Source of the DNA: Pirellulales bacterium
GTDB lineage: Bacteria; Planctomycetota; Planctomycetia; Pirellulales; PALSA-1355
Assembly: GCA_022844125.1 (NCBI GenBank)
Contig: JALHMI010000005.1
Coordinates: forward strand, 186,001-250,000
DNA length: 64,000 bases
Reading direction: 5' to 3'
Position 1 is the stretch's first letter. The number at the start of each line of letters is the position of its first letter. Shown here piece by piece: positions 11,428-58,306 of this stretch. Under the pieces are notes generated by a model, which had not been told where the DNA came from, made no database searches, and saw only the letters and a program-made list of their open reading frames with translations. Both the position numbers and the translations under genes were made by a program.

Positions 11428-11700
11428 TTACCGCAGAGTACGCTGAGGTTCGCAGAGGGAAGACAGACGAAGAGAACCACAGATGGACACAAATTCACAC
11501 AGCTGAAATAGAAGATGGGGGGCTGAGTCGCACCGCAGGCGTCGGCTGCGAGATGGCCGCGCAGACGTCGGTTGTCGAACGATTTACGATTGCCCCCTAT
11601 CTGTATGCATCTGTGTCCATCTGTGGTTCTCCTCCCTTGAATCCATTGCTTTTTTCTCTGCCTTTCCCTCTGCGTAACTCCGCGCCCTCTGCGGTTAGTC
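11428..11700. repeat. Degenerate inverted repeat of the 'CGCAGAG/ACCACAGATG' type
   Basis: The left arm (11428-11510) contains ACCGCAGAGTACGCTGAGG, CGCAGAGGGAAGACAG and GAACCACAGATGGACACA. The right arm (11597-11700), read on the minus strand, contains AACCGCAGAGGGCGCGGAG, CGCAGAGGGAAAGGCAGAG and GAACCACAGATGGACACAG in the same order. The arms face each other around an 86-nt unique centre. A single related copy is at 58096-58190. A 149-codon frame across the element is an artefact of its sequence. The 460-nt gap 11332-11791 otherwise holds only the terminator and the ABC-F leader. Confidence 0.8.
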
Positions 11701-16151: not shown

Positions 16152-16898
16152 TCAGCCGACGCGCCCTACGCGCGTGTACAGCGGCCAGCGCACCAGGCGT
16201 TGCTCGTCGGGATCACCCCAGGCCGCGCTTAGATCGCTTTTCACGAGCGCGAGCGGGTCGCTCCCTTGTGCCGCCCGATACTTCTCCACGCTCGACCACG
16301 TGCCGAGATAGCCGACCAACTGTGCCAGCTTCCAATGCGCCGTCATCTCGAACGGCGGCGACGGGAGTTCTTCAAAGGGAAATTCGATCGTGGCATACCG
16401 GTCTTCTATCAGCTTTCGCTCCGGCGGCCAGTAGCGGCCCAGAATCGGCTCGTAGAACCGCGCGACGACTGCATCCACGGCAGGCGAGATCGTCGCCAGC
16501 CCATACGCCCACAGTGCGAGCACGCTCCCCGCGCGACCGACGCGGCGAACCTCGTCATAGAACCGCGGTCGGTCGAACCAATGCACGGCCTGCGCCACGG
16601 AGATCAGGTCGACCGAGCGCCCCGCGATGGGCGCATGTTCGGCGCTGGCGACGACATACCGCACACGGTCGTGCGGCTGGGCGTGCTCAATCTGCCGGGA
16701 GCTGGGGTCGGTCGCCACGACCTCCTGAAAGTGCTCGGCGAGGGCCAGGGCCGCCTGACCGCTGCCGGTCCCGCAGTCCCAGGCCAATGCGTGCCGTGCG
16801 GGCAGGCTCGCCAGGTAAGCAAATAGCTCTTGGCCGTAATGCGGTCGAAACTGTGTATAGCGATCGGCTTGCGCCGAAAAGTGATCGTGAAATGTCAT
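16152..16898 (-). CDS. Class I SAM-dependent methyltransferase
   Basis: A 248-residue cytoplasmic protein. SAM-binding motif I is LAWDCGTGSGQAALALAEHF (about 37-56), and the acidic residue of motif II lies in VVATDPSSRQI. Further motifs are VRYVVASAEHAP and the post-motif IV VAQAVHWFDRPRFYDEVRRV. The last is characteristic of the methyltransferase_11 group that includes UbiE-like and trans-aconitate-like small-molecule enzymes. The acceptor is unknown. It lies upstream of the OGT-like gene on the same strand, so sugar or cell-envelope modification is a reasonable guess from context only. Confidence 0.88.
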   Translation of the reverse strand: MTFHDHFSAQADRYTQFRPHYGQELFAYLASLPARHALAWDCGTGSGQAALALAEHFQEVVATDPSSRQIEHAQPHDRVRYVVASAEHAPIAGRSVDLISVAQAVHWFDRPRFYDEVRRVGRAGSVLALWAYGLATISPAVDAVVARFYEPILGRYWPPERKLIEDRYATIEFPFEELPSPPFEMTAHWKLAQLVGYLGTWSSVEKYRAAQGSDPLALVKSDLSAAWGDPDEQRLVRWPLYTRVGRVG

Positions 16899-17016
16899 GG
16901 TCGATCCTGCCTGGGATTCGGGCTCTGTATATTAAGAGCGTCCGAACGAAACTCGTTCGATTTTCCGGGAGATTTCACACCCGACGACTTTTTCCAAGAA
17001 TTCTGGCAGTTGGTCG

Positions 17017-17045
17017 TTGACAGTGCACGATGGGTGTAGTTACAC
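17017..17045 (+). promoter_or_regulatory. Candidate promoter for the PEP-CTERM leader transcript
   Basis: A consensus TTGACA (17017-17022) is followed after 17 nt by TTACAC (17040-17045), a weak -10. The spacing and perfect -35 make it the best promoter in the gap. It would start RNA near 17052, leaving a leader of about 270 nt. Confidence 0.45.
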
Positions 17046-17092
17046 TAAGCGAACGTTTTGCTGGACCCGCATAGATTCACGGAAACGCTAAT

Positions 17093-17253
17093 GCACGCTG
17101 AGTGAGCCTGTTTCACCGCATAGGTGAGCGACCCTCCAACCGACTTGGGCTCACAAAATCACGAAGCGTGCAACTAGGCGCAGGACACTTCTGTCCGGGG
17201 CGCTGTTCCACAATAGGGCACTGACGGCTCTCGTTGAGCCGCAAGGGCTTTTT
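17093..17253 (+). ncRNA. Candidate structured leader RNA (possible attenuator/riboswitch-like element)
   Basis: Nested helices are P1 GCACGCT/AGCGTGC (17093-17099, 17165-17171) and P2 GTGAGCC/GGCTCAC (17102-17108, 17148-17154). Within P2 are hairpin P3 TCACC-gcata-GGTGA (17113-17127) and a short CCAA/TTGG hairpin. A separate hairpin GGACA-cttc-TGTCC (17183-17196) follows. Then comes CGGCTC-tcgtt-GAGCCG (17225-17241), with five Ts at 17249-17253, resembling a terminator. GAGCC of P2 could pair alternatively with GGCTC of the last hairpin. I do not recognise a known riboswitch class. The pairings come from direct reading, not a folding calculation. Confidence 0.45.
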
Positions 17254-17320
17254 GGAAAAGAAGTTAGTGTCGTTTCTTGAATCTCAGCGTGCACAGCGAA
17301 AACACAACAGGAGTTGCTTC

Positions 17321-18031
17321 ATGCGTCTCAAGAGATTCTCGTTGATCGCTGCTGCTTGGCTTTTGGGAATCTCTGTGCTGACGGCATCAAACGCCGCGGC
17401 CGAGACGTTGCAAATCCAGTTCACGGGTCTCAATCTGCAATACGATGGGACCAACATCTTCGACGCTGGTGTCCACAATACGACAAGCTCGGGCAATCCG
17501 GCCGAAGCTGACGCGCTCACGGCGATGAACTTCTACCTCGACGGTTCGTTGGTAGGCTCGCTCACCTCGGACATCTACGCCGATGTCTACATCAAAGACG
17601 TCCTCAACATTCCGGCCGCAGGCGGGGTCATCGTTACCGGCGGTAATGGAGGCGCATTCGGCATCGACCTGTTGATGAAGGACCTGACGCCTGGCTGGGG
17701 TCTGGCCCTCGATATCGATACCATGCAGTTTTTCTACACTGGTTCGCGCATCGCGATTTCCGTGGCAGGGTTGGCCACGAATCTCGCCGCGCAGGATCTG
17801 CCATTCGCCCTGCAGCTTGATCCCGTGCAGCCGATCAGAATTGTTCTGTCGAGCGCCAGCCTGACCAACGTTACCACTGCGGCCGGCTTCGTTACCGGCT
17901 TCAATGCCTCGGGTACTGGCAACACTTCGGGCGAAGGCTTCGTCGTCATCCCGGAACCTGCCAGCTACGTGCTGGCCGGCCTGGGCATTGCGGCTCTGGC
18001 CGTGGTTCGTCGCCGCCGCAAGGCAGCCTGA
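17321..18031 (+). CDS. PEP-CTERM sorting-domain exported protein
   Basis: A 236-residue protein. The signal peptide spans about residues 1-27 (MRLKRFSLIAAAWLLGISVL then Ala-rich AAA), and a beta-rich Gly/Asn/Thr passenger follows. The C-terminal PEP-CTERM signal is VIPEPASYVLAGLGIAALAV followed by RRRRK. PEP-CTERM proteins are processed by exosortases and usually end up in the envelope or an exopolysaccharide matrix. No exosortase gene is in the window. The ATG at 17321 is fixed by AGGAG 9 nt upstream and the signal peptide; the longer in-frame start at 17234 is inside the leader hairpins. The passenger has no recognisable domain. Confidence 0.93.
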   Translation: MRLKRFSLIAAAWLLGISVLTASNAAAETLQIQFTGLNLQYDGTNIFDAGVHNTTSSGNPAEADALTAMNFYLDGSLVGSLTSDIYADVYIKDVLNIPAAGGVIVTGGNGGAFGIDLLMKDLTPGWGLALDIDTMQFFYTGSRIAISVAGLATNLAAQDLPFALQLDPVQPIRIVLSSASLTNVTTAAGFVTGFNASGTGNTSGEGFVVIPEPASYVLAGLGIAALAVVRRRRKAA

Positions 18032-57796: not shown

Positions 57797-58306
57797 CTCT
57801 CGATTCTCGCCGGCCGTGGCTGCTGTCCGATGCCTCCACTCCTCATGGGGGAGCCGTCGCAGTCTAGTTGCTTGCCGCAACCACGGTCAATTGCACTCCT
57901 CAATCCCCACTCCCGCGCTGGCCTTTCGTCGCCCGAACCAATGGACGCTCCCCCGCACCCATCCGTTCATCTGCGCTCACGCTGTGGTTCTCTCTCAACT
58001 CCACCAGCGCCGTCGGCGATCCCTTCTATACTTCGCGAGCGCGTCGCTCTGGCCGCATCTCCGCCTTCACATTCGCAGCCATCTGCTCCTCCTTCCATTC
58101 CCAATCTGTGTGCATTCGTGTTCATCTGTGGTTCCGCCTTCTTCCCTCTGCCTGTTCCTCTGCGCCCCTCCGCGTCCTCAGCGGTTCATCTTCCTCACCC
58201 TCCCGCGCGGCTCCGAACCCCGGATTGAAAGGGAGCCTCCTAACTGGTCTACTGGTCGATTCTTGTGGCCGCTCGCTGTCCTTCTGTTAACCCGATTGCT
58301 CGCACC
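57797..58306. other. 510-nt divergent intergenic region containing one repeat copy
   Basis: It separates the ELWxxDGT gene (minus) from ileS (plus). The right half holds the CGCAGAG-type element at 58096-58190. Frames with cysteine- and proline-rich translations (for example around 57816-58487) come from this element and are not genes. A weak echo, ATCTGCGCTCACGCTGTGG, occurs near 57968. I see no convincing promoter or T-box for ileS. Confidence 0.55.
58096..58190. repeat. Single copy of the CGCAGAG/ACCACAGATG intergenic element
   Basis: On the minus strand it reads AACCGCTGAGGACGCGGAGG, GCGCAGAGGAACAGGCAGAG, GGAACCACAGATGAACACG, then ATGCACACAGATTGGG. The order of blocks is the same as in each arm at 11428-11700. 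Confidence 0.75.

Follow-up and report, generated by a model that had tools for sequence, protein, structure and literature searches.

A leader hairpin arm conserved between two paralogous PEP-CTERM genes of a Pirellulales bacterium and its likeness to a dispersed phased repeat

Several families of short inverted repeats are scattered through bacterial genomes with some of their copies in transcribed leaders or trailers, among them ERIC, Correia/NEMIS and REP/REPIN. RNase III cleavage has been proposed for NEMIS RNA, and ERIC appears to affect mRNA stability (PMC2229807). Two REP superfamilies, with GTAG or CGTC tags, are reported in Planctomycetes too (PMC3733652). For PEP-CTERM genes, a site consisting of a 17-nt motif ending in TTTACA and a sigma-54 motif has been described, which among the species of that study occurred in Proteobacteria only (PMC1569441). 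No planctomycete PEP-CTERM control site is evident in literature titles and abstracts.

In this study, we analyzed the leader of a PEP-CTERM gene in a window of 64,000 nucleotides from a Pirellulales bacterium. As in the proteobacterial sigma-54/PrsR system, conserved DNA is found in non-coding sequence of more than 200 nt ahead of the gene. The sigma-54 motif that forms part of the proteobacterial site is not seen here, however, and the sigma-54 consensus with up to two mismatches gave no match in 16899-17320. The folded 5' leader, in which a hairpin and a T-run precede the gene, is also reminiscent of the riboswitches and attenuators in Rfam, but it has neither an Rfam match (E up to 5) nor a workable alternative fold. 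A dispersed repeat that part of the leader fits, here called the ACGCTAATnn repeat, shares the short, scattered inverted-repeat form of ERIC, NEMIS and REP. It differs from them in that each arm carries an 8-letter word at 10-base steps and the spacers pair little above expectation; moreover, its arms begin near GGAA, in contrast to the tags of the two REP superfamilies.

The gene of interest (17321..18031, plus strand) encodes a PEP-CTERM protein of 236 aa with PF07589 above its cut-off, and a likely ribosome-binding site, AGGAG, inferred from the sequence, precedes it at 17309..17313. On the other side of the leader stretch lies a divergent methyltransferase gene (16152-16898, minus strand). 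The TTGACA promoter named in the first-pass annotation was located at 17017..17046 (plus strand) as a sigma-70-type site in which TTGACA is followed 18 nt on by TACACT; it is a consensus match only, with 10 of 12 letters. The consensus scan found two promoter-like sites within 16900-17400, compared to an average of 0.2 in shuffles. Transcription likely starts at 17052, judging from the position of this site.

The unit at 17093-17171 (79 nt) folds with a predicted energy of -29.4 kcal/mol (z -2.9; 1 of 200 shuffles equally good), and a second estimate gave z -3.1. A wider stretch, 17080-17185, was weaker (z -2.2; 5 of 200 shuffles). Since 79-nt segments taken at random from the window attain as low a z in 14 of 1200 cases, and as low an energy in 275, the leader fold beats chance but is not rare. 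The annotation had described three stacked helices, and all of them are present in the letters: GCACGCT at 17093 with AGCGTGC at 17165, GTGAGCC at 17102 with GGCTCAC at 17148, and TCACC at 17113 with GGTGA at 17123. The outer helix, formed by TGCACGCT (17092..17099) and AGCGTGCA (17165..17172), is firm, with pairing probabilities of 0.56 for its first pair and 0.88-1.0 for the seven named ones. The middle helix (17102..17108 with 17148..17154) holds less well, at only 0.44-0.48, because of a competing inner fold; the inner hairpin at 17113..17127 belongs to the predicted fold. A structured leader downstream of the promoter-like site is thus supported by the folding model. The neighboring stretch 17178-17256 (minus strand), which spans the terminator-like hairpin discussed below, has a z of -4.7, fourth lowest among the 1200 random stretches.

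The source genome has three copies of this PEP-CTERM gene. The product of the copy on contig C13 is 65% identical to that of 17321..18031, and the leaders of these two genes share a conserved 29-nt block. The block reads CGGAAACGCTAATGCACGCTgAGTGAGCC at 17080..17108 (241 nt upstream of the start codon) and CGGAAACGCTAATGCACGCTaAGTGAGCC in the C13 paralogue (219 nt upstream of its start codon), with 28 of 29 bases identical. BLAST and pattern searches found it at these two places only in the source genome, each ahead of a paralogous gene. At fourfold sites the two genes are saturated (23 of 65 identical, 35%), so that the conservation of the block far exceeds drift. The chance of 28/29 by drift is 4e-12 for one 29-nt stretch, uncorrected for the approximately 240 such stretches that the leader offers. 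The 110 nt 5' of the block show no likeness between the two leaders (151 of 500 shuffles equally good), and between the block and the ribosome site there is a weak elevation of the global score (4 of 500 shuffles) but none of the local one (352 of 500). The leader of the third paralogue, on contig C24, resembles neither of the others more than its shuffles do. In the C13 leader, in which the scan finds no promoter-like site, the block again serves as the 5' arm of a predicted hairpin (-38.0 kcal/mol, z -4.2; 0 of 200 shuffles equally good). That hairpin has a different loop, and its 3' arm has been rearranged by insertions and deletions with pairing to the block retained. These counts were made without the MAFFT alignment of the two hairpins, which misplaced the 3' arms.

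The block would then be either under selection or recently copied. Recent copying is disfavored because the loop and 3' arm, which would be expected to come along, differ. The first 12 nt of the block (17080-17091) are outside the main hairpin and mostly unpaired locally. They are nevertheless identical in both leaders, suggesting that the sequence, and not the shape alone, is read; a DNA site would account for this equally well. Given its conservation before a paralogue, a cis-regulatory role for the block is plausible. Inspection of the shared helices showed no compensatory substitutions, a comparison of little power because there are only two leaders and, where both pair, their 5' letters are identical.

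Counterparts of the leader were sought in other genomes. As a DNA query, it gave no match in the other three genomes of the family. In a homologue search of the class, 12 of 397 genomes gave a total of 18 matches, of which 3 lie in the source genome. Inspection by eye, together with a word search allowing up to one mismatch, revealed no like leader upstream of 12 of the 15 foreign homologues; the remaining three loci (L057, L066 and L069) were left out as no ORF was obtained. The word with up to one mismatch does occur upstream in L058, L059 and L060, which is about the chance level for so short a word, and L060 comes from the genome richest in the dispersed repeat. The clear hairpins matching the 5' arm outside the two leaders belong to that repeat.

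The dispersed repeat appeared when 296 genomes of the order were searched with the leader unit: most matches were due to chance, but some loci carried ACGCTAAT at 10-base steps followed by the inverse. The exact pattern CGCTAATnnACGCTAAT is present in 31 of 293 genomes of the order, with 57 matches in the richest, as against a single match in one genome for the reversed control. Across the phylum it was found in 6 of 392 genomes, and the control had none among the matches listed. Many copies form hairpins whose arms each hold two to three words, and some have no inverse arm nearby; examples among the order genomes, often with three words per arm, are L097, L136 and L166. The words are conserved; the spacers between arms pair in a fraction of 0.45-0.57, only slightly above the expected 0.40-0.50. 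These fractions are rough, as single elements enter the 137 arm pairings in several registers. Position relative to ORFs of 150 codons was tested in the 23 of 30 loci that reach 2900 bases: 21 of 23 copies are outside such ORFs, whereas 771 of 1150 random positions of the same loci lie inside. The strict motif was also found on four contigs of named genomes. On two of these, L106 from an Opitutae MAG and L107 from a Planctomycetota MAG, the motif forms a hairpin with inverted words. No inverted arm lies within 200 nt of the motif in L104 or L105, and we judge these two to be chance matches. Three words with no inverse arm visible occur on two viral contigs, L108 and L109, which share their flanks. 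The flanks of L224 and of several of L119-L129 and L163-L169 contain periodic words such as CGCAAAG, CACAGAG and CACGAA, with inverse copies beyond the hairpin; by eye, these look like one superfamily of phased inverted repeats with varied words.

None of the literature titles and abstract openings listed names this repeat, six of its words matched no paper, and a search of PMC2267715 gave no planctomycete name. Rfam searches of the window, of the leader (E up to 5) and, at gathering thresholds, of nine loci, most of them carrying the repeat, returned no RNA family except tRNA. A Y1 transposase, beside whose gene REP repeats with RAYT lie, was considered as the mover of the repeat. The gene is present in 24 of 25 searched genomes, so its presence does not discriminate, and the 30 Y1_Tnp loci fetched, a part of many matches, had no repeat arm (best 9.1 bits). 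The candidate was therefore rejected.

The match between block and repeat is confined to the first part of the arm. A 22-nt profile built from 124 distinct repeat arms gave 21.6 bits at 17081-17102 and 25.3 bits in the paralogue, compared to 12.1 for the next best site in the window, and 0 of 7677480 simulated positions reached 21.6. The repeat's own arms have a minimum of 12.9 and a 10th percentile of 23.2, placing 17081-17102 below the latter. The first two ACGCTAAT words stand at 10-base steps in the 5' arm of both leaders, and in neither is there a third word in phase. Owing to this loss, the leaders score low on a 38-column profile (9.1 and 10.0 bits, within the simulated range with its maximum of 11.5), where the repeat's own arms reach at least 22.9. 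The 3' arms pair in both leaders, but their inverted ATTAGCGT words are degraded. BLAST matched the paralogue block only weakly to two repeat copies of one genome (E 0.007 and 0.013), with two loop matches ranking above or between them. In the 293 genomes, the paralogue hairpin (E up to 0.05) had 10 matches beyond the two leaders. Three fall on the block, two of them in one repeat-rich genome and one in another repeat-bearing genome, and the seven elsewhere are probably due to chance.

The exact CGCTAATnnACGCTAAT pattern is absent from the source genome, in which the two-word pattern fits just two places. With two mismatches allowed, it gave 11 matches there against 26 for the reversed control, which gives no indication of further copies. 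A sister repeat with the word ACACAGAT and the same 10-base step, which also forms hairpins, is abundant in the source genome: allowing up to one mismatch, the word pair ACACAGATnnACACAGAT has 50 matches and the reversed control one. The window contains a sister-repeat hairpin at 11477-11626 and a site at 58131 (minus strand); two sister-repeat sites of the window reach 10.1 and 10.9 bits on the 38-column profile, above both leaders.

We propose, tentatively and at slightly less than even probability, that the leader hairpin derives from the interspersed repeat and was kept as a cis-regulatory site of the two paralogues. A copy of a dispersed inverted repeat of 8-letter words at 10-base steps, either already present or newly inserted, would have occupied the leader of a PEP-CTERM gene prior to the duplication of that gene. 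After duplication, the 5' arm at 17080-17108 would have been kept nearly letter for letter, while the loop and 3' arm changed but still paired. The arm may be the recognition site through which an RNA- or DNA-binding factor jointly controls both genes. It would most likely function as a stem-loop of the 5' untranslated RNA that affects processing, stability or translation and does not sense a ligand. Because the block lies approximately 30 nt downstream of the likely start at 17052, we would guess at a factor binding leader RNA first, and at a DNA-binding regulator next. Descent from the repeat would not be simple, as the leader spacers pair while those of the repeat barely exceed expectation. 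The restriction of the element to two leaders and the lack of visible covariation also count against this proposal.

The first-pass annotation saw in the leader the classic on/off arrangement of a riboswitch or attenuator of no recognized class. Rfam (4227 families) indeed gave no match to the leader, and the leader is stable, with a terminator-like hairpin and five T (at 17249) in 17216..17253 (plus strand), as the annotation had it. The hairpin, at 17216-17250, has -17.0 kcal/mol and z -3.0, with 0 of 200 shuffles equally good. It does not have the form of a consensus terminator: the strong stem stops at 17241, 7 nt upstream of the T-run, and the hairpin is missing from the hits of the consensus scan. 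In the paralogous leader, whose longest T-run is four, the same scan detected no terminator either, so that an expression platform is not seen to be conserved. The switch itself was to come from pairing of GAGCC (17104-17108) with GGCTC at 17226-17230 instead of 17148. GGCTC is present at both places, but this 5-letter pairing has a probability of 0.0, and forcing it costs 15.3 kcal/mol relative to the free fold (-58.1 instead of -73.4 kcal/mol). The same arm has, besides its local complement of 8 bp, a distal one of 11 bp: CTCAGCGTGCA at 17283..17293 (plus strand), 38 nt upstream of the start codon, is complementary to 17092-17102 at 11 of 11 positions. The paralogue too has both kinds, with GCGTGCACA 39 nt upstream of its start codon. 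A second switch through this complement was considered and set aside, as this pairing lies 8.8 kcal/mol (here) and 6.7 kcal/mol (paralogue) above the free fold, with probability 0.0, although the word is common to both leaders. No two mutually exclusive folds of like stability were thus found; these energies are thermodynamic, computed without ligand and without folding during transcription. With the alternative pairings disfavored, no Rfam match, and no such leader before the 12 readable homologues elsewhere, we do not accept a riboswitch or attenuator, and regard a ligand riboswitch or transcription attenuator, even by way of 17283-17293, as highly improbable.

The conserved 29 bp could instead be a double-stranded DNA site, either a transcription-factor operator or an alternative-sigma promoter, with the RNA hairpin incidental. 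The block is contiguous and promoter-sized, and it is conserved also where it is mostly unpaired. In the repeat, phased words with spacers that pair between arms little above expectation are what DNA sites would show, and the leader has more copies of the word at 17165-17172 and 17283-17293. We nevertheless consider this rather unlikely: the block is downstream of a good promoter-like site here (though the scan finds none in the paralogue), the leader has no sigma-54 consensus match, and the pairing 3' arm was kept in both copies despite its rearrangement. Promoter spacers, moreover, are seldom conserved letter by letter. Also to be weighed is a functionless, decaying copy of the dispersed repeat. 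The leader does match a repeat that sits mostly outside long ORFs, and the source genome is rich in sister-repeat sites. Neutral decay, however, should strike both arms and the unpaired part alike, and one arm is identical at 28/29 bases against 35% at fourfold sites. Two recent insertions would have had to strike both paralogous leaders at one and the same position, and would be expected to have loop and 3' arm in common, whereas these differ. A decaying copy is therefore improbable in our estimate.

A bolder form of the favored reading, descent from the repeat with retention as a cis-regulatory site, seems distinctly doubtful to us. According to it, an unreported kind of dispersed hairpin repeat, with 8-letter words repeated every helical turn in both arms and free spacers, would have been tamed into a leader element coordinating two paralogous cell-surface PEP-CTERM genes, with one factor reading the phased words in both. 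What appears to be new is the conservation of the block between paralogues and its link to a phased repeat, which we did not find named in literature titles and abstracts. An element of 29 bases common to two paralogues at saturating distance provides a handle on the control of PEP-CTERM genes in planctomycetes. The phased repeat, the seeming source of this leader element, is frequent in the order, which raises the question of which protein reads the phased words.
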